From assembly GCA_024644595.1 (NCBI GenBank), contig JAHEHL010000009.1:271512-335511 (forward strand): 64,000 nucleotides of DNA. Reading direction: 5' to 3'. Shown piece by piece: positions 4,554 through 61,520 of the stretch. The DNA is from Porticoccaceae bacterium (lineage in GTDB: Bacteria > Pseudomonadota > Gammaproteobacteria > Pseudomonadales > Porticoccaceae). Numbering within the stretch: the first letter of the stretch is position 1; every line of letters starts with the position of its first letter. The notes under the pieces are model-generated. The model was not told the DNA's origin. It did no database searches and saw only the letters and a list, made by a program, of their open reading frames with translations. The position numbers and the translations under genes are program-made.

Positions 4554-5639
4554 TTACTGGTCTTCTAAAAGGCTCGCCTGCTCAACTGTCGGATAGTCAA
4601 TATAACCTTCGGCACCTGGGGTGTAGAGTGTTTTACCATTCATTTTACTCAGGGGTGCAGCACTTGCCACACGGCCGACAAAATCTGGATTGGCAATAAA
4701 GGGTCGGCCAAAGGATACCGCGGCAGCGCCCTGATCGACGAGCAACTGGTTGGCCTCTTCCGGGCTGTAGCTATCATTGACGATCAGTGCGCCCTTGAAG
4801 TGCTGCTGAGCGAGAGCAATATTATCGATACCGGTGGACGCCATGCGAATAACGTGCAAATACGCCAAGCTCATCGGTGTCAGGGCCCTAAACAGGGCGG
4901 CAAAGGTTTCGCTGGCGTCCTCATCCTGCAGGTCATTAAAGGGGTTGCCCGGACACACGCGCACACCCACTCGACCGGGGCCTACGGTATCGCAAAGTGC
5001 CTGAGTGAGCTCAACGACAAAGCGCAGGCGATTTTCTAAACTGCCTCCATAGTTGTCAGTGCGCTGATTGCTGCCGGTGGATAAAAACTGCGCTGGCAGA
5101 TAACCGGAAGTGCAGTGCAATTCGATGCCATCAAATCCCGCCGCCATAGCGCGCTTGGCCGCCTCGCAGTACTCGCTGATAATCCCGGGAATCTCCGCGC
5201 TTTCAATTGCTCTGGGCGTAGGCATTGATTGCATGCCCTTGGGGGTGAAAATCTCTGCCTGGCAGGGAATCGCCGAAGGGCCAATCAATTCGCTGCCCGG
5301 CGCCTTATTGTCTGGATGTCCAACCCGACCGCAGTGCATTATCTGGGCGACGATGCGGCCGCCTTTCTCATGCACTGCATCGGTAACGGCGCGCCACAGA
5401 ATCTGCTGCTGGTTATTGTAGAGACCGGGAGAGAGCGTGTAGCCTTTGCCGGTTGGCGAGGGGTGTATCCCTTCACTAATAATCAACCCGGCGGTGGCAC
5501 GCTGAGCGTAATATTCAACGTGCAGAGCTGATACCGAGTCGTCTGGATTGGCCCGACTGCGTGTCATTGGCGCCATCACAATACGGTTTTGCAACTCGAT
5601 ATCGCCAAGGCGAAGTGGGGTAAAAAGTGCATCAAACAT
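4554..5639 (-). CDS. old yellow enzyme family alkene reductase
   Basis: A 361-residue FMN TIM barrel with the N-terminal pattern of NemA/OYE (FTPLRLGDIELQNRIVMAPM) and the NYGGSLENR segment near residues 196-204. Members reduce the C=C bond of alpha,beta-unsaturated ketones with NAD(P)H, and several act on steroid enones. The substrate carbonyl is normally held by His-His or His-Asn; here the positions are His175 and Ser178, with the proton-donor Tyr180 conserved. This substitution may change substrate choice. It sits between the NTF2-like gene and the amidohydrolase in one operon. Confidence 0.9.
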   Translation of the reverse strand: MFDALFTPLRLGDIELQNRIVMAPMTRSRANPDDSVSALHVEYYAQRATAGLIISEGIHPSPTGKGYTLSPGLYNNQQQILWRAVTDAVHEKGGRIVAQIMHCGRVGHPDNKAPGSELIGPSAIPCQAEIFTPKGMQSMPTPRAIESAEIPGIISEYCEAAKRAMAAGFDGIELHCTSGYLPAQFLSTGSNQRTDNYGGSLENRLRFVVELTQALCDTVGPGRVGVRVCPGNPFNDLQDEDASETFAALFRALTPMSLAYLHVIRMASTGIDNIALAQQHFKGALIVNDSYSPEEANQLLVDQGAAAVSFGRPFIANPDFVGRVASAAPLSKMNGKTLYTPGAEGYIDYPTVEQASLLEDQ

Positions 5640-5701
5640 GTAACTGACCTTTAGTTCTCTAACTTTTGATTACCAGCCCTGAAGTGGCTAGAAACTGCAC
5701 C

Positions 5702-6337
5702 TTAGCGCGTCCGAATACTCGGCGCACCGTTATCGCGGCGCATCGTTTTTAAAAACTGTTCAATCGGTGCGGGCTCTGCAACCACCGGCAAATCGTCGGT
5801 AATCGGGTTATCCCAAAACTCTTGCCAACTCGGCCACAGCTCATGGAAGGCACCGTCGTAATTGTCACGGTCAGGCCAACGCATTTTGTGCTCGCCGACC
5901 GGTGGTTTATTGAGATCTGTCGCGTACCAGTAACAGGGCAAGCGCCTTTGAAAATACCAGCGACCATCAATGCGCTGATATTGGTCCCAGTAGATCATCT
6001 GCATAATCACCCAGTCGATACCGCCATCGGCCCGAGCGGTCTCGTGTTCATTCTTGGAATAGACAACACCCAGGGCATGATCTGGGTCGTTAAATTCAAT
6101 AATATGGTTACCAATATGATGCGAGGTGCCGGTAAATTGAACTCTGAGGGTTTCATCCATCCAGCGTTTAAAGTGCGCTCGCCCCTGCATACCTTTACCG
6201 ACTCGAACATCGGCGGGAAACAGATTGACCAGCGCGTCCAAGTCTCGCATATCAAGCGCTAGCGAGTACTTGGCCGGCAACTGACGAATTTCATCGAGAG
6301 ATTCCAGGCGCTCAATTCGAGCAAGTATGTCATTCAT
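5702..6337 (-). CDS. NTF2-fold (SnoaL-like) protein
   Basis: A protein of 211 residues when started at the ATG at 6337, where AAAGGA is 8 bases upstream; the longer frame would run into the preceding gene. It is a cone-shaped NTF2/SnoaL fold by pattern: N-terminal helices (DEIRQLPAKYSLALD), a TSHHIGNHIIEF strand and a YQRIDGRWYFQRR strand. In steroid clusters proteins of this fold act as isomerases, hydratases or cyclases, but no known active-site set is clear here. It lies 13 bases after the FAD dehydrogenase gene, so the two are probably co-translated. Confidence 0.75.
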   Translation of the reverse strand: MNDILARIERLESLDEIRQLPAKYSLALDMRDLDALVNLFPADVRVGKGMQGRAHFKRWMDETLRVQFTGTSHHIGNHIIEFNDPDHALGVVYSKNEHETARADGGIDWVIMQMIYWDQYQRIDGRWYFQRRLPCYWYATDLNKPPVGEHKMRWPDRDNYDGAFHELWPSWQEFWDNPITDDLPVVAEPAPIEQFLKTMRRDNGAPSIRTR

Positions 6338-6350
6338 ATGTATATTTCCT

Positions 6351-7832
6351 TTAACGTTTTTCCCGCGCGCCTGCCGCAGCGCCAGCCATGCGCCCGCTAA
6401 AAGAGGCATCACCAACGGAAATACCCGAGGCGTAACCATCGGCACGGCGTGGAACACCGCAGGCAGTTCGACCCGCGGCATAGAGGCCGGGAATAATCTC
6501 GCCAGCCTCGGTTAGCACTTCCCCAGAAACCCTTGTATCCAAGCCGCCAAGGGTAAAGTATGGCATATTGACACCTCGCCCCGGCGTGCAATCAAGCGCC
6601 ACAAAGGGCGCCGTCAGCGGCTTTAACCACTCGCCCGACTTGTGAAATTCCGGGTCTGCCAACTGCTCCGCATGGCTGTTATAACACTCAATAGTCTGTC
6701 TTAACTGGTTCTCTGGCACATCAAGTTCGGCCAGCAGTTCATCCAGAGTCTCGCCAGTAGCGGCAACTGCTGCACCCAGATAAGAGTGTGTTTCATACTT
6801 GCCGTAATCCTCAACACTTAGTACCAGATAAACCGGCCCAGAGGGCTGTTGTAACACATGGGCACCGACCCGACCATGGTAACAATCTTCATTGATAAAG
6901 CGCTTGCCATGGGCATTGATAAATATCCCAAAGGTCAGTGACGAGGGCGGATAAAATGGCAGGCTGACAAACCCTTCATGCATATTAGTGACGGCTGCAC
7001 CCATGCTCTGGCCGATCAAAATACCACTACCGGTATCGCCAGTATTGCCAATCGGCAAGTTGCAGCGCATTAAATCCGGCGCGTATTCGGCGAGCATTTC
7101 GCGGTTCATCACGAACCCGCCCGCCGATAAAATAACGCCTTGGTTGCTGCGGAGATAGCGCTCTTGCATGTCACTGCGAACAACCAGCCCGACTACTTCA
7201 CCCGAATCTTCGATCAATCGCAGCGCGCGTGTTTCGAAGTGAACCTCGACACCGCGCTGAAGTGCGGCGGCGGTGAGTATTTTCATAAACAGCGGACCAC
7301 CATGGTCACCCTTTATCGCAAGGTTGTGTCCTCGAGGAGCTGGTGCAATGCTCTCGACATAGGGCCAGGCTTTTTCACTGCCGGTATAAAGCAGGCCATC
7401 ATCGGTGGTAGCGACAATCGCGCGAGCCTTAAACTCACTGTCATTAAATGGCACCCCCAGATCAACCAGCCAATCAAAATGGTCGGCACTGCCCTCACAA
7501 TAGGCGCGAATTTTTGCTGGGTCAGCCTGAGGGCCATTGCTAAGCATTAGATAGTCATACATGGCTTCAACGCTATCGTTATAGCCACAGGCCTTTTGAA
7601 CGCGAGTTCCAGCGCCCAAATAAAGCTCTGCGGACGACAGCGCCGTAGAGCCACCAGAACCAGAGGCGATATCGCAAATTAACACTGAACAGCCCGCATC
7701 GGCAGCCGCTATGGCTGCACAGGCACCAGCAGCACCAAATCCCACTACGATTACATCGTAGCGCCCATGCCATTGCGCTATATCCGCAGCAGTGATGGGA
7801 GAGTGTGAATGTGGGTGCGGTTCAGTTTTCAT
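6351..7832 (-). CDS. FAD-dependent 3-ketosteroid dehydrogenase-like flavoprotein (fumarate reductase family)
   Basis: A 493-residue flavoprotein with the FAD-binding GFGAAG at residues 31-36, GSGGSTALSS after the second strand, and the C-terminal FAD segment GLYAAGRTACG. It belongs to the fumarate reductase/KstD superfamily but is shorter than the 569-residue KstD in this window. One plausible role is a delta4(5-alpha)-3-ketosteroid dehydrogenase (the TesI/Kst4D type), but a delta1-dehydrogenase or another flavin reductase cannot be excluded. It is the first gene of the operon running down to the amidohydrolase, and it diverges from the 5-alpha-reductase-family gene over a gap that carries the cluster palindrome. 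Confidence 0.8.
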   Translation of the reverse strand: MKTEPHPHSHSPITAADIAQWHGRYDVIVVGFGAAGACAAIAAADAGCSVLICDIASGSGGSTALSSAELYLGAGTRVQKACGYNDSVEAMYDYLMLSNGPQADPAKIRAYCEGSADHFDWLVDLGVPFNDSEFKARAIVATTDDGLLYTGSEKAWPYVESIAPAPRGHNLAIKGDHGGPLFMKILTAAALQRGVEVHFETRALRLIEDSGEVVGLVVRSDMQERYLRSNQGVILSAGGFVMNREMLAEYAPDLMRCNLPIGNTGDTGSGILIGQSMGAAVTNMHEGFVSLPFYPPSSLTFGIFINAHGKRFINEDCYHGRVGAHVLQQPSGPVYLVLSVEDYGKYETHSYLGAAVAATGETLDELLAELDVPENQLRQTIECYNSHAEQLADPEFHKSGEWLKPLTAPFVALDCTPGRGVNMPYFTLGGLDTRVSGEVLTEAGEIIPGLYAAGRTACGVPRRADGYASGISVGDASFSGRMAGAAAGAREKR

Positions 7833-7949
7833 CGCGTTTCCGAAGCATCTTTTAGCGGCTGATTTTTGATAACCGCCAGGCTGTTTAAGCTCAGTTTCTG
7901 AGGCTTTCTTACAGCCCCTAAAGTTAGTGCCATTAGACGTCGGACACAG

Positions 7950-8994: not shown

Positions 8995-10659
8995 ATGATC
9001 AAACCTTATCGCCAATTAGCCACTGCGCTATTGTCCCTGCTTGTGTGTTCACAAGCTGTCTCAACCGTGCAGCCAAATGTCATTGTTATTGTCGCTGACG
9101 ATTTAGGCTGGAATGATGTCGGTTTTCACGGCGGTGATATCGATACCCCCTCGCTGGATAAACTGGCCAATGAGGGGGTCAGTCTCAATCGTTTTTACAC
9201 CACACCGATCTGCTCGCCCACCCGAGCAGCATTGATGACCGGCCGCGATCCGATGCGTCTGGGTGTTGCCTACAGTGTAATTCTGCCCTGGGACAACAAC
9301 GGCGTTCATCCCGATGAACATTTTATGCCGGAGTCGTTTCGCGCCACTGGCTACCAAACAGCAATGGTCGGCAAGTGGCATCTCGGCCATGCGCAGATGA
9401 GCTATCACCCAAACCAGCGTGGCTTTGAATATTTTTACGGCCACCTGCACACTGAGGTTGGCTATTTTTCGCCCTTTGCCAATATGGGCGGCAGCGATTT
9501 TCAGCGCAACGGCAGCACTATTTACGATGAGGGCTACGAGACCTTTCTGCTGGCCGACGACGTCTCGCGTTATATTCGCCAGCGCGATAAAACCAAGCCC
9601 TTCTTTATTTATATGCCCTTTTTGGCTCCGCATACACCACTGGCAGCACCACAACAGCTCACAGAGAAATATGCCAATATCAATACTGACCTCGCCCCCG
9701 CGCGCTCGCGGCACACCGATGAAACGCGGCGGTCAGCCAAGGCTCAGGGACGCCCCAGCGCCAGACCGGTCTATGCGGCAGTAGTCGACGCCATGGATCA
9801 GGCCATCGGTCAGGTGCTCACCACACTGGATGAAGAACAACTCAGTGAAAACACCCTGGTCATGTTTTTTAGTGACAATGGCGGCGCCGCCTATTCAGTC
9901 GGTGGCGCTGACAATTCACCACTGCGCGGCGGTAAGGGCGAAACCTTTGAGGGCGGCATTCGCGTGGTGTCGCTGTTGCGCTGGCCAGCGGTCATCAAAC
10001 CTGGCAGCGTGTCAGAACAGGTGATGCACGTGTTTGATGTATTCCCCACTCTTGCCGCTGCTGCCGGAGTGACAATGCAAAACAGTAAAAAACTCGATGG
10101 CGAGAACCTGTGGCCGTTCATTCAGTCGGGCCAGACAACGCCACGATCGAAACCACTGTTTTTTACCTCCGAGATTCCCATCTTTGGCAATTTTAATTTT
10201 GCCGCGATCGATGGCAACTGGAAATTGGTGCAAGAAGTGAAGCAGACTTTAGTTGAGACAAACACGACCAACTGGCTGTTTAATTTGTCTGAGGATCCCA
10301 ACGAATATCGTGATCTCAGTGCGGATCAACCGCAGCGTGTCGCTGCACTGGCCAACGCTATTCTGGATTGGCGCGCTCTGCATCCAATTAATGGGGTGCG
10401 CGCTAAAATGGCACCGCCGCCCGGCTGGCGTGCGCCCATTGACTGGGCTGACTATCCGAGATCGCTGCAAAGCCTGCAAAACACCTCCGCACCCAGTATG
10501 GCGCCAACGGCTGTTATTGAGGAGATTCTCGACCGCCAACATGAGCGGCGCGGACGAGTTGTCTATGATTGCGATCGTGGCCCAGAGCTTTCCATTCCCT
10601 GCCACCCGCCCGTGTTTAAACAGCCGAGCGCGGAGAATAAACCGCCAAGCGGTCAATGA
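8995..10659 (+). CDS. secreted type I sulfatase (arylsulfatase family)
   Basis: A 554-residue sulfatase with an N-terminal signal peptide (roughly residues 1-23), the metal ligands Asp35-Asp36, and the signature CSPTR at residues 73-77. Cys73 is the residue normally converted to formylglycine. FFSDNGG further along supplies more metal ligands. The enzyme removes sulfate esters in the periplasm or outside the cell. Next to a 5-alpha-reductase homolog inside a steroid locus, sulfated steroids are a reasonable substrate, though algal polysaccharide sulfates are also possible. A formylglycine-generating enzyme is not present in this window. Confidence 0.92.
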   Translation: MIKPYRQLATALLSLLVCSQAVSTVQPNVIVIVADDLGWNDVGFHGGDIDTPSLDKLANEGVSLNRFYTTPICSPTRAALMTGRDPMRLGVAYSVILPWDNNGVHPDEHFMPESFRATGYQTAMVGKWHLGHAQMSYHPNQRGFEYFYGHLHTEVGYFSPFANMGGSDFQRNGSTIYDEGYETFLLADDVSRYIRQRDKTKPFFIYMPFLAPHTPLAAPQQLTEKYANINTDLAPARSRHTDETRRSAKAQGRPSARPVYAAVVDAMDQAIGQVLTTLDEEQLSENTLVMFFSDNGGAAYSVGGADNSPLRGGKGETFEGGIRVVSLLRWPAVIKPGSVSEQVMHVFDVFPTLAAAAGVTMQNSKKLDGENLWPFIQSGQTTPRSKPLFFTSEIPIFGNFNFAAIDGNWKLVQEVKQTLVETNTTNWLFNLSEDPNEYRDLSADQPQRVAALANAILDWRALHPINGVRAKMAPPPGWRAPIDWADYPRSLQSLQNTSAPSMAPTAVIEEILDRQHERRGRVVYDCDRGPELSIPCHPPVFKQPSAENKPPSGQ

Positions 10660-32457: not shown

Positions 32458-33600
32458 ATGAAACAGCCGACTCTTCAAGACTTCTCCGCACTGTTGGCCA
32501 GTCTCTATGATGGCCATATCGAGGAAGACCCCTACAGCACGTTTCTCACGGGCTTGCGCAGCATAATTGATGCCAGTTTTGCCTCAATCACTATGCGTGA
32601 ACCCGCCAGTGATGACGGCGGACTGCTGTTCGTATCCTGTGAAAAATTACAAAAAACCTTTATTAACGATCACGAAAACCCCTATACAGATCGCTACTAT
32701 ACCTCCAATTTGATGACCAATTTACCGTGGGGGCAGGTCATTTCACTGGATGAGTGCCACCCCTATTCCAAACTGGAAGATACTGACCTCTACAACTTTT
32801 GTATGAAACCGCTGGATATCTATCATATGCTCGGCGTTGATCTGCGGAGTGCTAATGGTCAGCGCTTTAGTGTGCGCTTTTGCCGTCCCAAATCAGCGGC
32901 AAATTTTGAACCGAGCTGCCGTGATTTTCTCTCCATGCTGTCGACTCATATCCAACGTGCCATTGCCAATGGCATGCAGCTAATCCAGCTCGACAATGAG
33001 CGCAAGGTTTACAGTAAGACACTCTCGCGACAGGCAATTGGGGTGATTACATTAGATGAAAAGGGCAATGTCATTACGCGCAATGCCATTGCCGATGAAA
33101 TTTTGCATGAAAAAGACGGCCTTCATATTATTAACCAGCACATCCATTTGGAGAGCCCGGCTAGCAGAGCCAAACTCAATGGCTATATCAATGAAGTGAT
33201 TGAGGCCCAGCGCAACCACCAGCCGCCACCCGTCAACGCGCTCTCGGTCGATCGGCCATCAGGCAAACCCGATCTGGAAATCTTAATTAAACCGATGATG
33301 ATTGATAAAACTGTCGAGCCGAGCAACACGCCGCATATGATGGTCTTTATCAACGCCCCAGACAAAACCTCCGATATTGATATTCGTATCTTGATCTCAC
33401 TCTACAAGCTCACACGCGCAGAGGCGATGCTGGCGAAATATTTGGCAGACGGCGCCAACCTCGACCAGAGCGCAGCGCAATTAGGTATTGCACGCAACAC
33501 CGCGCGCGCACAACTGCGTTCGATCTTTGCTAAAACAGGGGTCAGCCAACAGTCGATGTTAGTGAGTTTGATTTTGAAAAGTTTGGTGACTTTTTCTTAG
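32458..33600 (+). CDS. LuxR-family regulator, TeiR-like
   Basis: 380 residues. The N-terminal two thirds is a sensor-type region without a receiver phosphorylation site. The C-terminus carries a LuxR-type helix-turn-helix (ISLYKLTRAEAMLAKYLADG, then AAQLGIARNTARAQLRSIFAKTG). This layout and length resemble TeiR, the testosterone-responsive activator of Comamonas. It lies at the end of the hsa operon, suggesting feedback control of the cluster. A similar protein is encoded at 45411-46550. The steroid-sensing role is inferred. Confidence 0.85.
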   Translation: MKQPTLQDFSALLASLYDGHIEEDPYSTFLTGLRSIIDASFASITMREPASDDGGLLFVSCEKLQKTFINDHENPYTDRYYTSNLMTNLPWGQVISLDECHPYSKLEDTDLYNFCMKPLDIYHMLGVDLRSANGQRFSVRFCRPKSAANFEPSCRDFLSMLSTHIQRAIANGMQLIQLDNERKVYSKTLSRQAIGVITLDEKGNVITRNAIADEILHEKDGLHIINQHIHLESPASRAKLNGYINEVIEAQRNHQPPPVNALSVDRPSGKPDLEILIKPMMIDKTVEPSNTPHMMVFINAPDKTSDIDIRILISLYKLTRAEAMLAKYLADGANLDQSAAQLGIARNTARAQLRSIFAKTGVSQQSMLVSLILKSLVTFS

Positions 33601-45410: not shown

Positions 45411-46550
45411 CTATAGCCAATGATCGCTTAAGACATCTGAGACTAACTTTACCAACTGTGTCTGGCTGTTAAGGTTGGTCTTGGAAAAAACCGAGCTTAA
45501 TTGTGTGCGCGCAGTATTGCGGGAGATTCCGAGTGCTTCAGCCGCCGCGGTCAAGCTCAAACCCTCGAGCAGTTTTAAGGTCAGTCTCGCCTCTGCCAGA
45601 GTCACACCAAAGATATCAATCAATAAACTGGGTGTTGGTAATTGACGTCGATTGGAGTCGCGCAACAGCAGCAATAGTTCAGGGTTATTTTCGGCGCCCA
45701 TGAAATCACCGCTGTCGACCGGACGAATCAAAACACCCCATGTGGAACCTGCTTGCGGGCGATTAATGGTGAAGTTATCGGCCAGCTGTGGGCGATTGCC
45801 CTGAGCTATATTCTGACGAATTGTGTCGCACATAGTCGTCAGGGTGAGTTGATCCGCCTTATCAATACAGACTAATTTCTTGCCAATGATCGATAGACCA
45901 TCTTTATTTTTAAGCACATGTTCAGCTAAATAATTCTTCGCCATCACCTCATAGTTTGCCCCGAGAATAAAAGAAGCAATCCCCATTGACGACAGCAGCT
46001 GCTGATAGATCTCTTGGCTAATGCCGCCGATCTCCATTCGAGAGTAGATGGTCAACGACTTTTTCATCAACGGAATAATAGTGGCAAAGCGTCGCTTTTC
46101 GTCATCCGAAAATTTGGGTTCATCGCCGATGCGAACAACCCGCAACCTTAGCCGGCTATGGTTATCATTGTCTTTGTCACATATATCAAAGCCCATGATA
46201 TCGGTTACATCATAGACTTTTAGAAAATATTTATAATGGTCAAGGTCTTCCAATTCACGCTGAGTAACTCGGTCACTCAAGCAAAACACCTGACCCTCTG
46301 GCAACTCAGCAAAGGGTGAATCTTTATAACTGTTGGTTTGAAAATCTAACAGCGCATCTTGGTTGTCAAAGAGTGTTATTGTCGACCCGGGCCCCTCTTC
46401 TGTCGGGCGCCTAATCACTAGCGATGCACTTTTTGTTGAAACATAGTCTTCAAGTAACTTCAGTAAACTATGCCATGGCGGTGTCTCTAAAACGCCCTCA
46501 TAGATGGCCTCACTGAGAGGATGTGACTGAACCAGTTCATTTATCGACAC
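45411..46550 (-). CDS. LuxR-family regulator, TeiR-like
   Basis: 379 residues with a sensor-like N-terminal region and a C-terminal LuxR helix-turn-helix (IFGVTLAEARLTLKLLEG, AAEALGISRNTARTQLSSVFSKTN). It is a paralog of the regulator at 32458-33600: same length, and the same RNTARxQL(R/S)S(I/V)F recognition-helix pattern. It marks the right edge of the steroid region and begins 44 bases after the 3' end of selC on the same strand. Steroid sensing is inferred from the resemblance to TeiR. Confidence 0.85.
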   Translation of the reverse strand: MSINELVQSHPLSEAIYEGVLETPPWHSLLKLLEDYVSTKSASLVIRRPTEEGPGSTITLFDNQDALLDFQTNSYKDSPFAELPEGQVFCLSDRVTQRELEDLDHYKYFLKVYDVTDIMGFDICDKDNDNHSRLRLRVVRIGDEPKFSDDEKRRFATIIPLMKKSLTIYSRMEIGGISQEIYQQLLSSMGIASFILGANYEVMAKNYLAEHVLKNKDGLSIIGKKLVCIDKADQLTLTTMCDTIRQNIAQGNRPQLADNFTINRPQAGSTWGVLIRPVDSGDFMGAENNPELLLLLRDSNRRQLPTPSLLIDIFGVTLAEARLTLKLLEGLSLTAAAEALGISRNTARTQLSSVFSKTNLNSQTQLVKLVSDVLSDHWL

Positions 46551-46593: not shown

Positions 46594-46687
46594 TGGCGGA
46601 AGGGGTAGGAGTCGAACCCACCAAACACCTTATCAGCGTCTCATTGGTTTTGAAAACCAGGCGCCCCACCGGGGACGTCGCCCTTCC
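46594..46687 (-). tRNA. selC: tRNA-Sec (UCA anticodon)
   Basis: 94 bases starting GGAAGGG and ending with an encoded CCA after discriminator G. The anticodon TCA is at 46651-46653 in the loop TTTCAAA. There is a long variable arm (AGACGC/GTGTTT, several G-U pairs), the T loop TTCGACT and the D arm GTCCCC/GGGGC. It closely follows the E. coli selC plan but is one base shorter. The acceptor plus T stems give 12 pairs (7+5) instead of 13, because base 8 (C) faces no G. The first anticodon-stem pair is C-A. It is directly downstream of selB. Confidence 0.95.
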
Positions 46688-46738: not shown

Positions 46739-48670
46739 TTAAAGAAACAGTTCCCGTCCCTCATTTTTTCTTCGGGTAAAGTGAATCGAATCAAGGTGTT
46801 CTAAAATCTCAATTGTCAGTCCTCTGCCCAACCCCAACTGCGCCTTTGCATCAATAACCGTAAAACAAGCATGGGCGTTGGCCAGTTGCATTATGGCTGC
46901 TGCAATAGCGTCTCTGGTTTCGGCGAGCATATAACGTTTTTGACTCAACTGAATTAGATCGCCACTTTTTAGTGCCGGTATTATCAATGCCGATAACTGT
47001 TTTTTACTCAAGCCGCTCTCTTTCTCGATCTCAGACAGCAGTGGAACCTGAAATCCACCTTTACGCAATATATTACTGAATAAAAACCAGTGCTGCTGAA
47101 CCTGAGATGAGAGGGTGGGTCGATGGCCAGCCAAGCTCAAATATCCATTATTGATGCAGACCCTCGCCTCTTTTAATAAGTCAGACAGTGCGAGCTTACA
47201 AAGCAGAGCCGAATCGCTCTTGAACTGGCCGGTTAAATCAACTGTTAACACTCCCGCTTCCATTGGGCGATCACGATGCATGGCCTGCAAACTCTCACAA
47301 AGCATTCGCTGCATTTCCCCCAAACGGTGTTTGGCAACTAAATACTTGCACCCTTCGTGCTCAATGATCGCTGTACTCTGATGTAATTGCGCGTCGAGCA
47401 AAAGCACCTGACTCTGCTTTTCAGTCATATTCCAGCCGCGCATAAAAGCGGATAAATCTAGCGGCTGCTGACTCTCGACAATAATATTGTGCAGTGCCTG
47501 TAATGGCTCATCGTGCTCCATAGCGGCCAAGTACTGCAGGCGCTGTAAATCGCCCTTGCGCCATGGTGATGCCTGCGGCAACAACACTGTGCCACCACCG
47601 AGGTTAATGCTCTCGCTGTTATCGCGAACTAAAAACCGATCACCATGACAAACCAGCAGCGCTTGCTCTACTGCAATTTGGACAATAACGTTATCGGCTG
47701 CGACCAGTTTTCGCGCGCCATTATCCCCCGGTATCGATTCTGTTTTGGGAATAACTATTTTCCCCACTACCCGCCGTGCTCCGAGGTAGAGTTTGACGGC
47801 CATCATATGTTTGATGGGGAAGTTAATATCAGCTGCTATCCGTATGCGCGCATCAAATCGATCACTGGGTTCTATACAACTGATGGCCGACAAATAATCA
47901 CCCCGCCTGACTGAGTGTTTATCAAAGTCGCCAACAATATTAAACGCACAGCGCTGACCCGCCATGCCTTCATTGGCTGATTGGTTATCGGCATTGAGAC
48001 TGCGCACTCGTACAGTTGATGAACAGCCCGATAACCCTGATAGCAGGCGCAGAGTATCGCCAACAGCAACGGTTCCGGCAGCAACCGTACCGGTTACCAC
48101 CAGCCCTACTCCCTTTAGCGTGAAGACGCGATCGATTGACATCCTGAACAAGCCGTCTGCGTTTCGCGGCTGTAGACACTTGGCCTGCTTATCGAGAAAC
48201 ATTTGCAGAGCGTTAATGCCAATGCTGTTACCTTTAGCGGTGTTGGACACTTCAAATATCTGGCTCTGGGGCAACAGCTCAAACACAGTATCTCGCACCG
48301 CTTCAACACGCACTCGCTCGACACAGTCGATTTTACTGATGACGACCACTGTCTGCTCAATACCCAGCAGGCGTATAATTTGCAGGTGTTCTAGGGTCTG
48401 TGGCATCAGTCCATCGTCGGCGGCAACAACCAGCATGGCGATATCGATACCACTGATCCCGGAGATCATGGTGTTGATAAAGCTTTTATGGCCCGGCACA
48501 TCAATAAAGCCGATGCTGACGTGGTCATCAATTTTGCGATAAGCAAAGCCGAGATTAATCGACAGCCCCCTGCGCTTTTCTTCTTCTAGCCGATCGGTAT
48601 CCACACCGGTTAACTGTTTCACCAGTGATGTCTTGCCATGATCCACATGGCCGGCTGTCGCAACAATCAT
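46739..48670 (-). CDS. selB: selenocysteine-specific elongation factor SelB
   Basis: 643 residues from MIVATAGHVDHGK; the upstream in-frame codons belong to selA. The GTPase core has G1 AGHVDHGKTS (5-14), the switch with RRGLSINLGFA, G3 DVPGHKSF and G4 SKID. Translation-factor barrels follow, and then C-terminal winged helices (for example SEIEKESGLSKKQLSALI) that bind the SECIS hairpin. It delivers Sec-tRNA to UGA. The start lies 1 base after the selA stop codon. Confidence 0.95.
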   Translation of the reverse strand: MIVATAGHVDHGKTSLVKQLTGVDTDRLEEEKRRGLSINLGFAYRKIDDHVSIGFIDVPGHKSFINTMISGISGIDIAMLVVAADDGLMPQTLEHLQIIRLLGIEQTVVVISKIDCVERVRVEAVRDTVFELLPQSQIFEVSNTAKGNSIGINALQMFLDKQAKCLQPRNADGLFRMSIDRVFTLKGVGLVVTGTVAAGTVAVGDTLRLLSGLSGCSSTVRVRSLNADNQSANEGMAGQRCAFNIVGDFDKHSVRRGDYLSAISCIEPSDRFDARIRIAADINFPIKHMMAVKLYLGARRVVGKIVIPKTESIPGDNGARKLVAADNVIVQIAVEQALLVCHGDRFLVRDNSESINLGGGTVLLPQASPWRKGDLQRLQYLAAMEHDEPLQALHNIIVESQQPLDLSAFMRGWNMTEKQSQVLLLDAQLHQSTAIIEHEGCKYLVAKHRLGEMQRMLCESLQAMHRDRPMEAGVLTVDLTGQFKSDSALLCKLALSDLLKEARVCINNGYLSLAGHRPTLSSQVQQHWFLFSNILRKGGFQVPLLSEIEKESGLSKKQLSALIIPALKSGDLIQLSQKRYMLAETRDAIAAAIMQLANAHACFTVIDAKAQLGLGRGLTIEILEHLDSIHFTRRKNEGRELFL

Positions 48671-48671
48671 A

Positions 48672-50075
48672 TTAGATGCGAGGTAACAGTTGCAGCTGCT
48701 GTAGAAAGCGATCCTCATCATCCAGACAGCGTAAATCGAGGAGCAATTCACCCTTGTGGATACGGCCAATAATGGGATGAGGTAAAGCCCTCAACGCCGC
48801 AGACAATTCGCGTACAGCGCTGTCGCACGGCTCTAATGGCGCAAGATACAGCACCATGCTGTCGAGTGTGTCGACAGGCAGTGCGCCACTGCCGATCTGA
48901 CTGTAACTTGCCTTACTACCCACGTGAAAGCGGTTTGGCACGGCCGCCTGTACCAGCGGCACGAGCCGCTCGGCTTGCTGCTGCATATCGGTTAATGAGC
49001 GTGTCAGGTATCTCAGGGTGGGAAGTTTTTTGACTAAGCTGCTCGGATCGAGATACAACGTCAATACTTCAGCCAATGCGGCAATGGTCATCTTGTCCAG
49101 CCGCAAGGCGCGCTTGAGTGGATTGTTACGCATTTTCTCTACAAGGTCTTTGCGGCCCGCAATAATGCCGCACTGGGGACCGCCTAATAGTTTGTCACCA
49201 CTGAAGGTAATGATATCTACGCCATTGGCGATAGACTCCGCTGCTGTGGGCTCATGGGGCAAGCCCAAAGCTGCAAAATTAATCAGGCTACCACTGCCCA
49301 AATCCGCGACCAGTGGCAACTGATGCAGCTGAGCTAACTCGGCAAGATCATGCTCTGACACAGAATCGGTAAAACCTTCTACCTTGTAATTACTGGTGTG
49401 CACTTTTAATAACAGCGCAGTGTTTTCACCGATCGCTGCAGCATAATCTTTAAGGTGGGTCCGATTGGTGGCACCAATTTCCACCAGCCGACAACCGGAG
49501 CCTTGCATCACTTCAGGAATGCGGAACGAGCCGCCAATCTCGACTAGTTCTCCTCGTGACACGGGTACTTCTCGATGGTTGGCCAGCGTATTTAACGTCA
49601 GGAATACCGCGGCAGCATTGTTGTTAACAACAGTAGCCGCCTCGGCTCCGGTCAGTTCACATATCAACTTTTCTATATGGCTATCACGCTCGCCGCGGCC
49701 GCCATGCACCAAATCATACTCAAGGTTGCTGGGCGCTCCGGCCACCTTTAACACAGCGTCTAGTGCCTCTTGTGGCAATATGGCACGGCCCAAGTTGGTA
49801 TGGATAACAGTACCCGTGAGGTTCATAACAGCTTTAAGAGACGGTTGGTTTTTTACGTCAAGGTATTGAATGGTGGCGGCTTTAATGCCGTCGATACTAA
49901 TCAACGGATTAATACCCTGGCCAATCTGGTGACGAAGCTCATCGATGGTTATGCTGACAACCTTGCTAACTTCCGCGTGCCCTCGCAAGCGAATTGTATC
50001 TCCCATTTCTCGCAGAACGGCATTGACAGAGGGCAGGCGTCGCTTCAGGTTGTTCACGGCCTCAATTTGATTCAT
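48672..50075 (-). CDS. selA: L-seryl-tRNA(Sec) selenium transferase SelA
   Basis: 467 residues, PLP enzyme. The N-terminal tRNA-binding part begins RRLPSVNAVLREM. The PLP lysine is in TFSGDKLLGGPQCGI, with NLGRAILP and NNNAAAVFL in the cofactor domain. It converts Ser-tRNA-Sec to Sec-tRNA-Sec with selenophosphate. It starts 27 bases after the KAS III-like gene and is nearly fused to selB, so selenoprotein and machinery share a transcript. Confidence 0.95.
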   Translation of the reverse strand: MNQIEAVNNLKRRLPSVNAVLREMGDTIRLRGHAEVSKVVSITIDELRHQIGQGINPLISIDGIKAATIQYLDVKNQPSLKAVMNLTGTVIHTNLGRAILPQEALDAVLKVAGAPSNLEYDLVHGGRGERDSHIEKLICELTGAEAATVVNNNAAAVFLTLNTLANHREVPVSRGELVEIGGSFRIPEVMQGSGCRLVEIGATNRTHLKDYAAAIGENTALLLKVHTSNYKVEGFTDSVSEHDLAELAQLHQLPLVADLGSGSLINFAALGLPHEPTAAESIANGVDIITFSGDKLLGGPQCGIIAGRKDLVEKMRNNPLKRALRLDKMTIAALAEVLTLYLDPSSLVKKLPTLRYLTRSLTDMQQQAERLVPLVQAAVPNRFHVGSKASYSQIGSGALPVDTLDSMVLYLAPLEPCDSAVRELSAALRALPHPIIGRIHKGELLLDLRCLDDEDRFLQQLQLLPRI

Positions 50076-50102: not shown

Positions 50103-51161
50103 TTAACGAATGCTTTCGTTGGGCACGTTTTTGCCTGCGGGCATCAACAACCCTGAGCCAAATGCGTAGGGTGTGCTACCGGCCATTAAATACGGTTCAT
50201 GACAGCCGGTCGATTTAAGTAATTTATCCAGCACAATTAAAATATCAGCCGAACCGACGTGCCCAGTATCGTGCCCTGTGATTAAAAAATTGTCGATGGG
50301 TATTTCAATAACACTGGCGATCAACAACATAAAAAGATTCGATGTTTGATTACACAGCGCACGCTCAGGTACAACGTTAAAGCGCTCTTTTAAAGCTTGA
50401 TAGCTAGCTTGATAGCCCTGCGCATATCGCTCTCTCATATCGACGCCTTCGACACCGACAAATTTGCGTTCAAAGGCCGTTTCACCGTCGGGGGCTGTCG
50501 GCTTGCGGGTGCCGCCATACTCAACCAGCACCGCGCCATTGAGATCACTTTGGCTGACAAACTCGGCACCATAAAAAAGCCCTTTGGCTACGTGTTCGGT
50601 GTTCATCGCCACCACGGTCGCTGCGCCGCCATCGGCATGGGCCCACAAACCATAACTTTCGCTGGCGCTGTGATCGACGGTATAGGACCATCGCTCGGCG
50701 GTGACCACCGCCGCGACACCGCCGCCACGCAGAGCTAACCATCCCTGCGCCATATCGAGAGCGGTTAGCGCACCCATACAACCAACCGTGAGATCAACAC
50801 AATTGCAGGTGCCACTGATTCCGGCATTTTTTATCAACTCAGCTGACACTGACCAGGACGGCAAATAATCGCGCGACATACCGGCAAAAATCACCAGCTT
50901 GACCTCACTGGGGTCAACTCCAGCATCCACTAGGGCCGCTTGCAGAGCCTTGCCTCCCATGCTGCTGGGATGATCATCTTCAAGCGCATGACAGACATTA
51001 TTCCAACCTTCATAAATACTCGTATCAGCACTCCCGGCTTCAGCAACAACCTCCCGCACTGGCCTCGCTGGCGGCAAGTAAGTACCGCTACCCAGAATAG
51101 ACAAGGCTTGGTTTTTAGCCTGGTCACTAGGGCCGGATCTCGTTTCAGTAAAGTGTGTCAT
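50103..51161 (-). CDS. 3-oxoacyl-ACP synthase III (FabH)-like protein
   Basis: 352 residues, thiolase fold. The nucleophile is Cys128 in DLTVGCMGALTAL. At the FabH His244 position there is Asn271 (NQTS), and at the FabH Asn274 position there is His301 (GHVGSAD), at the exact 30-residue spacing. The Cys-His-Asn triad is therefore present with His and Asn swapped. It could condense or transfer acyl groups, and the substrate is unknown. Its ATG overlaps the stop codon of the selenoprotein gene (TAATG), so the two are translationally coupled and likely act together. Confidence 0.85.
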   Translation of the reverse strand: MTHFTETRSGPSDQAKNQALSILGSGTYLPPARPVREVVAEAGSADTSIYEGWNNVCHALEDDHPSSMGGKALQAALVDAGVDPSEVKLVIFAGMSRDYLPSWSVSAELIKNAGISGTCNCVDLTVGCMGALTALDMAQGWLALRGGGVAAVVTAERWSYTVDHSASESYGLWAHADGGAATVVAMNTEHVAKGLFYGAEFVSQSDLNGAVLVEYGGTRKPTAPDGETAFERKFVGVEGVDMRERYAQGYQASYQALKERFNVVPERALCNQTSNLFMLLIASVIEIPIDNFLITGHDTGHVGSADILIVLDKLLKSTGCHEPYLMAGSTPYAFGSGLLMPAGKNVPNESIR

Positions 51162-51760
51162 TAGGGACTCTCATTATTTAATAAACGCTGTGCAGCATCG
51201 GCGATTTGTGTAGCGCGCTGATACAAAATATCGTCATCAACCATCTGAGTGGGATGATTAATCACAATTGCAGGTAATGGGATATCCGAAGGTTGATAAA
51301 CCATTGCCCGTTCGACCTGCCCCCCAAAGGGCTCAGTCAAGATAGCGAAGCCGGCAACGCCGATTCGCTGTAGTGCTATAGAGTCAAGCGAACTGCCCGA
51401 CGAACAACTGCCTCAGTCGGATATTCCGCAGAGAACCAGCCCTCCCTCCCGGGAGAGCGAGTCAAGCATGGCCGCTGGCATAGGTCGGCTGGCATCTTCC
51501 TTGACCAGAATCTGATCATCAACCTCAATTCCCCGTTCGCGCAGGATGGTTTGAGTCAATTTAAGAATCGCCATAGAGTTTGGTTTTAAATGATCGACCA
51601 AAACCACTCGCGACAGCTTGGGTTTGATCGTCACTTTAATGGGCTCAGGTGCCGGCCTTGGAATGGGGTCGACCAAAAGCTCACAGGTGATATCGCCACA
51701 GCTCATCAACTGCTTGCTCGGCAATGTTAATCCACCTGACGTGGGTGTTTTATCCGTCAT
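51161..51760 (-). CDS. UGSC-motif selenoprotein (in-frame UGA read as selenocysteine)
   Basis: 199 residues if the TGA at 51413-51415 is decoded as Sec116. A normal gene finder stops there. After the TGA the frame stays open for 83 codons, to a TAA overlapping the next ATG. The redox motif is Sec116-Gly-Ser-Cys119, followed by SSGSSLDS. The post-TGA part has regular protein character (RIGVAGFAILTEPFGGQVERA; AIVINHPTQM). The start is the ATG at 51760 with AAGAGG 6 bases upstream. I recall a family called 'UGSC (seleno)protein' with unknown function. It shares an operon with selA, selB and selC. Confidence 0.9.
51383..51401 (-). promoter_or_regulatory. bacterial SECIS-like hairpin
   Basis: GTCGGGCAGTTCGCTTGAC folds into a 7-bp stem (two G-U pairs) with loop AGUUC, starting 11 bases after the in-frame UGA. 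Both the spacing and the GU-containing small loop resemble the E. coli fdhF SECIS. Recognition by SelB is inferred. Confidence 0.6.
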
Positions 51761-51797
51761 AGTTAACCTCTTTATGATCAAGCTAGTTTACTTTTTC

Positions 51798-52808
51798 TTA
51801 TTCTATCGGCCGACACACGACTTGCTGGCTGCCCACCCAGCGCGGTATCACCGCGGAAAAACGGCCGCCTTCACCGCCGCACTCAATAAACGATAATTGA
51901 TCGATGCTTTTTAATGGCGACCGCATACTGTGCTCCTCAACTTCTGCGTAGGGAATGGGCTGTTTGGCGATACGACCCACGTTGGTCAAATCATCAGTTT
52001 GACGCCGCGCATGAGCATAAATATATTGCGCCGCCTGCTCACGGCTAAACTGCGCTTTGACCAATGCCATATGATCGGGGGGAATGACAACCACAAAACC
52101 GCCGGAGCGGTAATACCAAGCTGTCTGGCCATAGTGGTTCATGCAGTCGCCGATGGTATCGAGAATACTCGCACCGGTTTCACCGTAGTGGTTGTTGCAC
52201 GAATTGGGGCCCTCGGCCGACATGATCGATACTGCAGAGGCCGTGGCTGGTAAACCATGTTGGGTATGGTATGGCTCCCATTCCGTTGTCGGATGCTCAG
52301 CAATACAAAAACTGAGCCTACCAGGATGGCCAACTGTACCGTGGGATACCAGCACGCCACCGCCACTGCCACAAAAATAACGCATCATCTGAGCAAATCG
52401 CCCGACGGTGGCATTGGCACGGTTGTTAGCCCCCAGAGCATTGGCGCCATGCTCAAACCCCAGCTGCTCAACAATAGGTCCACTTACAATGACTAAGACT
52501 GCAGCGCCACCAGTCGTAACTTCAACACCACTGATATTAAACTTTGGATCGAGCAAGGCCAGTGACAAGCTTTTCAGCAACGGGCCATATTCAGTTTTAC
52601 AACCCGCCATAACGGCCGTCGCAGCTGCTTTCTCCGCCCGAATAATGATGTTTTGATCAGGAATTTCGCCTATCACGTCACTGGCTTGCCAGCCCATTGC
52701 AGAGAGCATTTCGTCGACCAGGGAACCGTAGGGTGGGATAACAGGTAACCCATCGCTCCAGCCGTTGTTCATGCAATTTTCAATATCTTGAAGCGTCTCG
52801 TAGGCCAT
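51798..52808 (-). CDS. uncharacterised protein of the selenoprotein operon
   Basis: 336 residues from the ATG at 52808; a GTG at 52841 is possible. I do not recognise the family. Visible features are NGWSDGLPVIPP near residues 15-26, a GCKTEYGPLLK segment, FCGSGGGVLVSHGTVGHPGR in the middle, and NSCNNHYGETGASILDTIGDCMNHYG, rich in Cys, His and Gly. No signal peptide or membrane span is evident. It is the first gene of the operon, 37 bases before the selenoprotein, so it is probably a partner enzyme subunit. No function is claimed. Confidence 0.8.
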   Translation of the reverse strand: MAYETLQDIENCMNNGWSDGLPVIPPYGSLVDEMLSAMGWQASDVIGEIPDQNIIIRAEKAAATAVMAGCKTEYGPLLKSLSLALLDPKFNISGVEVTTGGAAVLVIVSGPIVEQLGFEHGANALGANNRANATVGRFAQMMRYFCGSGGGVLVSHGTVGHPGRLSFCIAEHPTTEWEPYHTQHGLPATASAVSIMSAEGPNSCNNHYGETGASILDTIGDCMNHYGQTAWYYRSGGFVVVIPPDHMALVKAQFSREQAAQYIYAHARRQTDDLTNVGRIAKQPIPYAEVEEHSMRSPLKSIDQLSFIECGGEGGRFSAVIPRWVGSQQVVCRPIE

Positions 52809-53052: not shown

Positions 53053-54258
53053 ATGTACTACGGTTGGTTTGTTGTTAGCGGCGCACTTCTTTCTCAAGTC
53101 GCCATAGTAGGGTTCTTTTCTTATGTCTTCAGTCTCCTGGTACTCCCCTTACAAAACAGCTTCGACGCCACCCGTACAGAGGTAATGTACAGTATGAGTT
53201 TCACAGCGATGCTGGGGCTATTTCTGGCCCCTACGATTGGTGTTTTGGCTGACAAATATCCAATCCGCTGGCTGATGGTGTTAGGTGCAGCTATTTTTGG
53301 CGCCGGCTTATTCGCCTTGTCACTGACTCAAACCCTGCTGCAATTTACTTTATTGTTTGGCCTTGTGATGGGGTTAAGCAACCAGTTACTAGGCCCATTA
53401 TGTGGGTCAGCAATGATATCGCGCTGGTTTACCGACAGCAGAGGCAAAGCCTTAGGTATTGCGGCGACAGGCTCATCGCTGGGCGGCATATTCCTGCCCG
53501 CGCTATTTGTTTACTGGCTCGAAGACGACGGTAATTGGCGCAGCGCCCTACAAAATCTCTCTTACGGTGTACTGTTTATCCTGCTGCCTTATCTCATGAT
53601 TGTTATGCGCGATTTTAATCAGGACCAACAGGTTAACCAAACCATTGAAGACGATCCTACAAAACAAAACAACGAGCACAATGATTACACCTTAAAGCAA
53701 ATCATCAAGAACCCAAGTTACTGGATAGTGGGTATTAGCATGGCCTTGTTGTTCAGCACCTACAGCGCGCTGCTTGCCAACCTCACACCTTACTTATTGG
53801 GTCAAGGTCTGGATAAGACCATAGCCGCGCAAGCGATTATGATTATTGCCATTTCAGGGTTGGTGGGGAAAATTTCGTTTGGCTATGCAGCCGATAAAGT
53901 CAGCCTAAAACTCGCCTTATCGGTGACACAACTGGCGGTAATAGGCGGTCTGTTAATACTCGCCGCAAGCCCATCTTATTGGGTAATAACGTTAGCGCTA
54001 GCTATTCTCGGCTTGTCTACCGGCGGCATGCTGCCAGTTTGGGGCGCTTTGCTGGCGGCTATTTTTGGCACCGTCAGTTATGGCCGAGTAATGGGTCTAA
54101 TGATGCCATTGATTGTCTTGATCGTGATACCGGGTTATAGCTTAGCCGGTTATCTCTCTGACCAGTCAGGCAGCTACGGCTTATGCTTTGTGATTTTTTC
54201 AGCCGTGATTGCTATCTCAATGCCTCTGGCCCTTATGCTTAAAATACCGTCAAAGTAA
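53053..54258 (+). CDS. MFS transporter
   Basis: 401 residues with twelve predicted hydrophobic spans, the loop-2/3 motif GVLADKYPIRW near residues 66-76 and a hydrophilic central loop (about 190-220). The start MYYGWFVVSGALL resembles the monocarboxylate/oxalate-formate (OFA-like) antiporter branch, which carries small organic acids. It is divergent from the selenoprotein operon and shares its promoter region, so it may import the substrate or export the product of that system. An AAGGTG ribosome-binding site precedes the ATG. Confidence 0.87.
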   Translation: MYYGWFVVSGALLSQVAIVGFFSYVFSLLVLPLQNSFDATRTEVMYSMSFTAMLGLFLAPTIGVLADKYPIRWLMVLGAAIFGAGLFALSLTQTLLQFTLLFGLVMGLSNQLLGPLCGSAMISRWFTDSRGKALGIAATGSSLGGIFLPALFVYWLEDDGNWRSALQNLSYGVLFILLPYLMIVMRDFNQDQQVNQTIEDDPTKQNNEHNDYTLKQIIKNPSYWIVGISMALLFSTYSALLANLTPYLLGQGLDKTIAAQAIMIIAISGLVGKISFGYAADKVSLKLALSVTQLAVIGGLLILAASPSYWVITLALAILGLSTGGMLPVWGALLAAIFGTVSYGRVMGLMMPLIVLIVIPGYSLAGYLSDQSGSYGLCFVIFSAVIAISMPLALMLKIPSK

Positions 54259-59245: not shown

Positions 59246-59373
59246 GCAGTTTATTGAGAGAAGAACAGGGCGCCAAAGTGCGTGGTGACCCGAGATCTGC
59301 ACAAACAAACTCATGACCTCAGATAACAAACCAAGTACCCTAGCGCATTAACGTTTTTGTGACTCAAAACCCT

Positions 59374-60435
59374 ATGCCAAAAGAACCCAAGACCAGCGAA
59401 CCCGTCCGCTTAACCCAATACAGCCACGGTGCCGGTTGCGGCTGCAAAATTGCGCCGAATGTACTGGAAACCTTTCTGCAAACCGATTTTGTCGCACCGC
59501 AAGATGCACGCTTGCTGGTCGGCAATAGCACCAAAGACGACGCCGCGGTCTATGACCTCGGTGATGGCACGGGGATAATTAGCACGACTGATTTCTTTAT
59601 GCCGATTGTCGACGACCCGTTTGAGTTCGGACGCGTCGCTGCCGCTAATGCGATCAGTGATATCTATGCCATGGGCGGCACGCCGATGATGGCGATTGCG
59701 ATTCTCGGCTGGCCGATCAACACCCTTCCCGCAGAGGTGGCAAGGCACGTTATCGATGGTGGTCGCCATGCCTGTGGCGAGGCCGGCATTCATCTCGCCG
59801 GCGGACATTCAATCGATTCGCCAGAGCCAATTTTTGGGCTTGCGGTCACCGGACGAGTAGCGCTTGAACATCTTAAACAGAACAGCACAGCCAAAGCCGG
59901 CAATCAGCTGTTTCTGACCAAGCCGATTGGAGTGGGCATTCTGACGACTGCGGAAAAACAGGGAAAATTACAGCCGGAGCATGCCCGATTAGCGGTTGAG
60001 AGCATGATGAAGCTCAATACCATTGGCGCCGAATTGGCCAAACTTGAAGGCGTTACGGCCATCACCGATGTGACTGGCTTTGGTTTACTCGGCCATCTGC
60101 TGGAAATCTGTCAGGGCAGTAATCTATCGGCAGTTTTACAATTCGACGAGGTTCCGTTACTCAATAGTGCTGTGCTCGATTATCTGGCTCAGGGCTGCGT
60201 TCCCGGAGGCAGCAAGCGCAACTGGGACAGCATCCAGCAAAATGTGTCGGGAACCGATCCCCAGAGCCAGGCGCTACTCTGTGACCCGCAAACCAGCGGT
60301 GGTTTGCTGGTTGCCGTTGAGCCACAAGTTTCCGATCAGGTACGCGAACTATTGGAGCGAGCCAACTGTTACGCACAACCGATTGGCGAATTGGTCAAGA
60401 GCCACGCTGAGTCGGCCATCCGAGTGATCCGTTGA
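59374..60435 (+). CDS. selD: selenide, water dikinase (selenophosphate synthetase)
   Basis: 353 residues from the ATG at 59374; a GTG at 59359 adds five residues. The N-terminal active loop [10 protein letters not shown] has Cys22 (equivalent to E. coli Cys17) and Lys25, so this SelD is the cysteine form and does not itself need Sec. The PurM/AIRS-like ATP domain follows ([25 protein letters not shown]). It makes selenophosphate for both Sec-tRNA and 2-selenouridine. It overlaps the next gene by 4 bases. Confidence 0.95.
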
Positions 60436-61520
60436 ACCTGCCACTGACAAATGACTATCGCCAGCTGCTGCTGAGCGATACACCCATGATCGACGTTCGG
60501 GCACCGGTAGAGTTTGCCGGCGGTTCACTACCCAGTGCAGTAAACCTGCCGCTGATGAATAACGACGAACGACACCAAGTCGGCCTGCGCTATAAAAATA
60601 ACGGCCAGCAATCCGCCATCGAGCTTGGCCATCGACTGGTTAGCGGCGAAACAAAAACGCAGCGCGTTCAACGCTGGTGTGATTTTATGTCAGCCAATGC
60701 CGGTGCTGTAATGTATTGCGCCCGAGGCGGATTGCGCTCGCAACTGAGTCAGGAATGGTTGGCTGAGGCTGGCGCTGAGTGCCCCAGGATTGAGGGTGGC
60801 TATAAGTCTCTGCGCGGATTTTTGCTCCAGTATCTAATCGATTATTGCGCCAACAACCGCTTCACGATCTTGTCCGGCATGACCGGAACGGGCAAAACCG
60901 AGATTATTCACCAGCTGCCAAACGGCGTCGATCTGGAGGGTGCCGCCAATCACAAAGGCTCGAGTTTTGGCCGCCCTCTTGATGAACAACCGGTACAGAT
61001 AGATTTTGAAAACCGTATCGCGATTGACCTTCTCAAAGTATCTGACCAACATCCAGATACTGCAGTGGTTCTGGAAGATGAAAGTCGCAATATCGGCGCG
61101 CGCCATCTGCCACACTATTTTGCCGATCAAATGGCTCTGGGTCAGTTTGCTGTCATCGAAATGGATTTTGAGGAGCGTCTGGAACGGCTCTGGCAGGAGT
61201 ATGTGGTGGAGCGCTATTTAAAAACCATGGCGTTTTTTGGTGCTGACGGTGAACACGAGTTTGCCTGTTATCTTCGTGACAGCTTACTGCGCATTCAGAA
61301 GCGTCTTGGCGGTCAACGCACCAAAGAGCTGCTGGCCTCTATGGATAATGCTATTGCCGTGCAACATTCAGACAATTTCGCCAGTCATCGTCACTGGTTA
61401 TCGGTTATTACCCGAGACTATTACGATCCGATGTACTGCTATCAATTGGAAAAGAAAAAAGACCGAGTGGTATTTAGGGGGTCGCGAGACGCGGTGATAG
61501 AGTGGCTTCAACACAGTTAA
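60432..61520 (+). CDS. mnmH: tRNA 2-selenouridine synthase
   Basis: 362 residues from a TTG start that overlaps the selD stop. The rhodanese domain (about 1-125) carries the active Cys96 in [11 protein letters not shown]. The P-loop GMTGTGKTE is at about 149-157 in the second domain. It replaces sulfur by selenium at the wobble uridine of some tRNAs, using selenophosphate from SelD. The selD-mnmH pair is common, and with selABC it shows the host uses selenium in both tRNA and protein. Confidence 0.95.

Follow-up and report, generated by a model that had tools for sequence, protein, structure and literature searches.

The window analyzed here, a stretch of 64,000 nucleotides from a Porticoccaceae bacterium of marine type (GenBank assembly GCA_024644595.1), contains a gene whose product is, with near certainty, a selenoprotein of a known family, UGSC. 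Judged from sequence, its in-frame UGA behaves as a selenocysteine (Sec) codon, and the protein belongs to a unit that also includes a constant partner protein. The comparative evidence suggests that UGSC works with this partner and with thioredoxin (Trx) as a selenium-based reductase.

The UGSC gene lies on the minus strand (51164..51760) and encodes 199 aa with Sec at position 116, followed by a TAA stop at 51161-51163. The earlier note had described, naming no strand, an apparent 122-aa ORF ending at a TGA, 83 further open codons and a TAA overlapping the next start codon, and all three are seen in the sequence. The mechanically listed ORF (122 aa, 51413-51781, minus strand) runs from a TTG at 51781 to the TGA at 51413-51415, which the read-through frame places as U116 in a U-G-S-C motif. 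A Shine-Dalgarno-like AGAGG precedes the UGSC ATG at 51760 (by eye). The UGSC TAA (51163-51161) shares bases with the ATG (51161-51159) of an acyltransferase-like gene as TAATG (51163-51159), so that ribosomes reaching the distal UGSC stop are positioned to start the acyltransferase gene.

The neighboring genes on the minus strand are the partner gene (51798..52808, ~336 aa with a probable start at MAYET), the KAS III-fold acyltransferase-like gene (50106..51161), selA (48672..50075; TIGR00474, 1.1e-172), selB (46739..48673; TIGR00475, 7e-110, matching from ORF residue 33, with a probable start at MIVATAGHVDHGK within a longer ORF) and selC, the tRNA-Sec gene (46598..46687, found by two programs), which bears out the earlier statement that the operon holds selA, selB and selC. 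A LuxR-type (HTH) regulator follows (45411..46550, minus strand; its Pfam HTH matches are weak and below the cut-offs). In genome G180, the gene immediately upstream of the partner encodes a homolog of this regulator, 48% identical, so the regulator may regulate the module. By eye, it and a second regulator of the window (32458-33600) are of similar size and alike at the C-terminal end (RNTARAQLRSIFAKT / RNTARTQLSSVFSKT). On the plus strand are a divergent MFS transporter (53053..54258; top NCBIfam match an L-lactate MFS transporter, below cut-off), which adjoins the partner gene in L004 too, selD (selenide, water dikinase; 59359..60435; NF002098, 5.9e-163) and mnmH/selU (tRNA 2-selenouridine synthase; 60432..61520; NF008751, 1.8e-141). 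The window thus holds the full Sec machinery, with selA, selB and tRNA-Sec in the same direction as UGSC, and selD and mnmH at 59.4-61.5 kb. Among six loci scanned, five of them picked because of the presence of selA, tRNA-Sec is also found near UGSC in L004, L099, L100, L102 and L104, and none is found in L056. In L004 (11091-13041), selB is apparently split over two frames in the MAG, by assembly error or decay.

The reading of the UGA as Sec is supported by its conservation. The UGA is kept at the same codon in two Pseudomonadales MAGs (L003 and L004; 85% and 84% identical) and in L017 of genome G180. Across 194 genomes of the order, window included, 19 UGSC loci exceed the cut-off, and their motif codon is UGA in 18 and a Cys codon in one (L016); a phylum sample of 398 genomes added five further loci, three with Sec and two with Cys. 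These labels were borne out by reading the motif codons. One of the two Cys genes of the phylum sample (L106 of G449, ~9781-10304) is broken, with its TGA away from the motif; it was rejected as a Sec gene, as its motif codon is TGC, the TGA takes the place of a Trp found in its kin, and the reading frame is broken. It is a case where an in-frame TGA is not Sec. All 27 aligned UGSC sequences, window included, have Sec or Cys at the site, and the invariant columns include U/C116, G117, S118, C119, D126 and F145. Thus the homolog check at residue 116 proposed in the earlier note came out in favor of the selenoprotein: close homologs run past the UGA, similarity continues and Cys or Sec is conserved.

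Selection on the part beyond the UGA points the same way, with dN/dS of ~0.1. For the window and L003, dN/dS is 0.084 past the UGA (dN 0.038, dS 0.453) and 0.18 before it (0.119, 0.644); for the window and L004, the values are 0.094 (0.032/0.340) and again 0.18 (0.130/0.723). For the window and L017, dN and dS are 0.139 and 2.031 past the UGA, and 0.336 and 1.297 before it.

A SECIS-like hairpin of 7 bp with a 5-nt loop (51383..51401, minus strand) was identified 14-32 nt past the U of the UGA by folding and pair counts. Of 24 Sec genes, 23 fold into a hairpin with the loop beginning 21-23 nt past the UGA. The seven pairs defined in the window are met on average in 5.75/7 cases in the 24 Sec genes versus 4.1/7 in 7 Cys genes, and three Sec genes (L011, L022 and L023) meet only 3/7. 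In 22 distinct Sec sequences, 124 of 154 cells are paired, versus 115.6 (sd 1.7, maximum 122 of 2000) with the arms shuffled, a signal that may still include relatedness and coding constraint. Against synonymous shuffles, z is -1 or lower in 13 of the 24 Sec genes. The window hairpin is of ordinary stability versus shuffles (z -0.66; -0.16 against synonymous shuffles). Compared across genes, the RNA evidence is supportive; taken alone, the window hairpin does not decide the matter.

The name UGSC given in the earlier note was confirmed by a Pfam match to PF24696 'UGSC family' (87.8 bits, E=1.2e-24, cut-off 25), and the window protein has the [U/C]-G-S-C motif with Asp126 and Phe145. The NCBIfam equivalog NF041046 scored 74.7 bits against a cut-off of 125, so this model would not name the window protein, which on this score is taken as a relative and is not called an NF041046 equivalog. 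The sequence comparisons place it in a divergent UGSC clade, not in a new family. When 35 sequences are placed in a tree, the window, L003, L004 and L017 come out as one clade on a long branch (support 100/100). Explaining the Sec/Cys labels on this tree takes six changes, of which well-supported branches force two, with 11 inner branches left open. The UGSC proteins of the window clade have an N-terminal extension with a CGDxxC motif.

The protein had been presented as a hidden selenoprotein: it is hidden to gene callers, but the family was already known as selenoproteins. The accessible text of the GOS 2008 paper (PMC2398784) reports 255 UGSC selenoproteins and 21 Cys homologs, that of a 2017 paper describes UGSC-motif selenoproteins in Geodermatophilaceae, with tRNA-Sec of anticodon CUA, and that of a 2021 ocean survey (PMC9402790) puts UGSC proteins at 8.2% of selenoprotein genes. 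That the reaction is unknown, as the earlier note stated, agrees with two reviews: in their accessible parts, the 2022 review lists UGSC in a table with no function given, and the 2026 review places it in a group with biological functions largely uncharacterized. The predicted mis-annotation was also found, as the UGSC gene of Paracoccus ferrooxidans CP038202 is annotated as a pair of 'hypothetical proteins' divided at the UGA; at least one public record still breaks up a Sec form of UGSC in this way. In this genome (L056, 5360-5929), UGSC lies upstream of the partner, with selB ~4 kb away. On the Acidovorax sp. T1 plasmid p2-T1 (L081, 5437-5940), UGSC has a TGA at the motif, and all that is annotated there is a hypothetical protein of 291 bases (5419-5709) inside UGSC.

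Several candidate matches were set aside. A second UGSC match in the same genome (window 7695-7835) lies inside an FAD-dependent reductase frame and is below the cut-off, and single UGSC matches in G069, G092 and G115 are all below the cut-off as well. With the window UGSC as query no plasmid was found; plasmids were found with a query nearer to the core of the family. A search of viral contigs for relatives found none. Among the other selenoprotein families searched for in the genome, a formate dehydrogenase match has no TGA, and SelW-like proteins and GRDB are absent.

The partner gene, absent from the earlier note, is the best clue to function. Of the 194 genomes of the order, 14 have UGSC over the cut-off, and exactly these 14 have the partner; either gene has 19 loci. 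We considered 25 UGSC-first loci with flanks (18 of the order, five of the phylum sample, L004 and the window), leaving out L003, which is cut off before the partner position, and the partner adjoins or is fused to UGSC in all 25. The two genes are on opposite strands in L085 alone, and locus L021/L090 has them fused. On plasmids, 24 records have the partner, and all 18 records with UGSC matches are among these; 18 of the 24 were inspected, and UGSC is adjacent or fused in 17, with none in Haladaptatus (L076). Four haloarchaeal loci (L057, L075, L078 and L084) have the order partner-UGSC-partner, all with a Cys codon. In a 42-sequence partner alignment, Asp26, Gly27, Pro29, Pro33, Gly117, Gly133, Arg144 and Glu178 are present in 42/42 and Cys77 in 40/42 (numbers follow the trimmed alignment row). 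The window partner has no match in Pfam or NCBIfam, the partner part of its relatives has chance-level matches only, and a comparison with the PDB gave no credible match. The accessible text of the GOS 2008 paper (PMC2398784) describes a fusion of UGSC to a domain 'Unknown_1', which is plausibly the partner.

Three more distant plasmid loci outside the alignment have no U-G-S-C motif (L054, L058 and L083, the last from Neorhizobium). In the fused UGSC-like domain of Sporomusa and Vibrio, M-G-T-S replaces U-G-S-C, and these forms are perhaps a non-redox branch. Together with the motif-less L083, they indicate that redox chemistry is not universal in the family, and the lack of redox residues in these forms points to a separate function of the partner there. 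The fused UGSC-like and partner genes of Sporomusa and Vibrio (L054, 5281-7005; L058, 5371-7056) lie beside aconitase X genes.

A link to thioredoxin is seen in the partner itself: of the 25 UGSC-first loci, 12 have a partner with an N-terminal Trx-like CxxC extension, which reads CHTC in L104, CETC in L107 and CPTC in the other ten. The partner proteins of the window and its clade are without this extension. Searched against the PDB with an E limit of 1, a profile of 11 of the 12 Trx-like domains had 152 matches, the top one at 6.1e-6. Of the best 60, 58 bear the name thioredoxin, tryparedoxin or thiol-disulfide oxidoreductase, and two are called 'YkuV protein' and 'Uncharacterized protein'. 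Single-sequence Pfam scans of the extension stayed below the cut-offs. No description of the partner or of its Trx fusion was found in Pfam, NCBIfam or the accessible parts of the literature searched. Thioredoxin reductase (TrxR)-like genes occur around 3 of 24 genome loci (G039, G318 and G321) versus 0.16 expected from 25 matches in ~65.7 Mb scaled to 0.43 Mb (the stretches sum to 0.436 Mb; Poisson P 6e-4). In G039, the TrxR near UGSC is the only TrxR match of the genome, and in G180 a TrxR-like gene lies ~11 kb from the locus, outside the stretch. Eight of 18 plasmid loci have a TrxR-like gene (L051, L052, L055, L075, L077, L078, L082 and L083), a count that has no background rate, and an Arthrobacter plasmid has the order trxB-trxA-partner-UGSC. 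The window has no TrxR at 40-60 kb, and its genome has a single match at the threshold applied, which lies on a different contig.

The UGSC profile was also compared with GRDB (PF07355), the family of PrdB and GrdB, which are the Sec-containing subunits of D-proline reductase and glycine reductase. According to the accessible text of PMC13188914, PrdB is a homolog of GrdB, and that of PMC3091704 describes electrons reaching glycine reductase via TrxR and Trx. Using hhalign, 27 UGSC versus 6 GRDB sequences gave p 9e-4 (probability 23%), and 35 UGSC (34 used) versus 15 GRDB sequences including three PrdB, sets assembled after the first result, gave p 2.2e-6 (probability 89%) over ~63 columns, pairing U-G-S-C with U-[PG]-x-C. 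As controls, 17 other families from the same loci had p 0.0054-0.79 and reversed profiles 0.019 and 0.026. One further control, 'fam 0' (p 4.1e-9), was dropped from the 17 because it holds UGSC-fused proteins, which explains its p value, and it serves as a positive control. UGSC versus the three PrdB alone gave p 2.9e-4; without the window clade the match to GRDB was unchanged (p 2.1e-6), and the window clade alone was not significant (p 0.0038). No Pfam match to GRDB was found at E up to 10 in 10 UGSC-domain proteins, window included. The partner had no match to PrdA, PrdD or GRDB profiles (three PrdA, p 0.38), and without a detectable PrdA relation the substrate side differs. The link to PrdB/GrdB is thus weak, and these profile comparisons probably reflect remote homology of the redox domain and not membership. 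GRDB-like selenoproteins of ~300-430 residues are also present (L059-L066), with UPxC in genomes G039, G133 and G179, whereas L062, from G167, ends before the motif; the GRDB model matches only the C-terminal part in the three scanned.

Predicted structure models had a mean pLDDT of 53.8 for UGSC and 33.2 for the partner, with only 2-3 sequences used. A fold search with the UGSC model gave flavodoxin-like and other alpha/beta matches with TM < 0.6, and the models are too weak for this search to be more than a hint.

The gene coupled to UGSC by the TAATG overlap has KAS III similarity (best PDB match E 3.4e-9), and its Cys128, His301 and Asp306 are kept in L004 and L102. It has Asn at the place where condensing KAS III enzymes usually carry His. 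Among 43 loci clustered, the acyltransferase is found only in the window clade (L004, L102 and the window), and it is present in L003 too.

Combining these observations, we favor, with moderate confidence, a reading in which UGSC and the partner make up a two-protein (seleno)reductase that is fed by thioredoxin and acts on a small organic substrate, with chemistry of the GrdB/PrdB type. A two-subunit, thioredoxin-fed reductase is likely on the comparative evidence, and GrdB-like chemistry with acyl transfer is possible. The two proteins would form one enzyme, in which the UGSC subunit would bear the reactive selenolate U116, with C119 as the resolving thiol, and the partner would bind the substrate. 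The reductive step would act on a small carboxylate or acyl compound, as by GrdB/PrdB in glycine and proline reductase, and the resulting Se-S bond would be re-reduced by thioredoxin, either the Trx-like domain of the partner or the cell's own Trx/TrxR. In the window clade, the KAS III-type acyltransferase may take or hand over the acyl group, and having the sel genes next to the gene that needs them would tie Sec supply to demand. A tentative extension is that UGSC and its partner represent a selenoenzyme class new to bacteria and haloarchaea and fed by thioredoxin. As a distant PrdB/GrdB cousin, it might reduce or reductively cleave an alpha-substituted carboxylate with a different substrate subunit, the window-clade acyltransferase taking the acyl product as a functional counterpart of GrdC. 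GrdC is also FabH-like.

We consider it unlikely that UGSC is instead a Trx-fold peroxidase or disulfide reductase with the partner as a structural or regulatory companion. A Trx-like fold was supposed for UGSC in the accessible text of the GOS 2008 paper (PMC2398784), the UxxC motif is compatible with it, and a peroxidase activity of GrdB appears as the title of a reference in PMC3091704. However, a PDB search with the 27-sequence UGSC profile, run at E up to 10, gave no Trx chain, and 10 UGSC-domain proteins matched no Trx family in Pfam, whereas the domain fused to the partner matches Trx. In the low-confidence model, U116 would follow a late strand of a Rossmann-like chain, and many annotated plasmid neighbors are catabolic (CoA transferases, TRAP/TTT transport and lyases; one locus has no annotation). 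A still more improbable alternative is that the UGA gene is chiefly a selenium sensor, where low Sec would lead to termination at the UGA and less translation of the acyltransferase and selA-selB. The TAATG overlap with the acyltransferase gene and the position of selA-selB further downstream would fit this, as would the order UGSC, selA, selB in L099 and L100 and their proximity in L104, but Cys forms occur with no sel gene annotated in the stretch (e.g., in haloarchaea), selA and selB are on the other strand in G180, and UGSC is under strong purifying selection. That the UGA is a true stop, with a truncated 115-residue protein made and the 3' part a remnant, has a negligible probability, as only the ordinary stability of the window hairpin favors it, against purifying selection past the UGA, homologs with Cys at the site, the full Sec machinery next door and a stop-start overlap that sits at the distal TAA.

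The obligate partner, the Trx-domain fusion and the remote PrdB/GrdB link turn an 'unknown redox protein' into a testable two-subunit reductase. They would also make it understandable if studies of UGSC alone did not succeed.

Compared with the rest of the UGSC family (PF24696/NF041046; ABI76733 in reviews), the window protein has in common the U/C-G-S-C motif and the same adjacent partner family. With the 23 aligned sequences that do not belong to its clade it shares 13-26% identity, and the clade differs in its N-terminal extension and the coupled KAS III-like acyltransferase. The acyltransferase has KAS III similarity in common with CerJ, ChlB3 and DpsC, but this similarity is low, and it adjoins sel genes. 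Its Cys128-His301-Asp306 corresponds to Cys113-His296-Asp301, given for acyl transfer by ChlB3 in the accessible text of PMC9573744, with the same H-D spacing of 5, and differs from the Ser-His-His given for DpsC in the text available. Compared with PrdB/GrdB (PF07355), UGSC has no direct Pfam match, its partner is not PrdA-like, its catabolic neighbors are of another kind, and it has one partner gene instead of the grd/prd set. What the two have in common is the UxxC selenolate, the downstream pattern E..GIPtv.I and HP/PLG in the profile alignment, and the link to Trx/TrxR.
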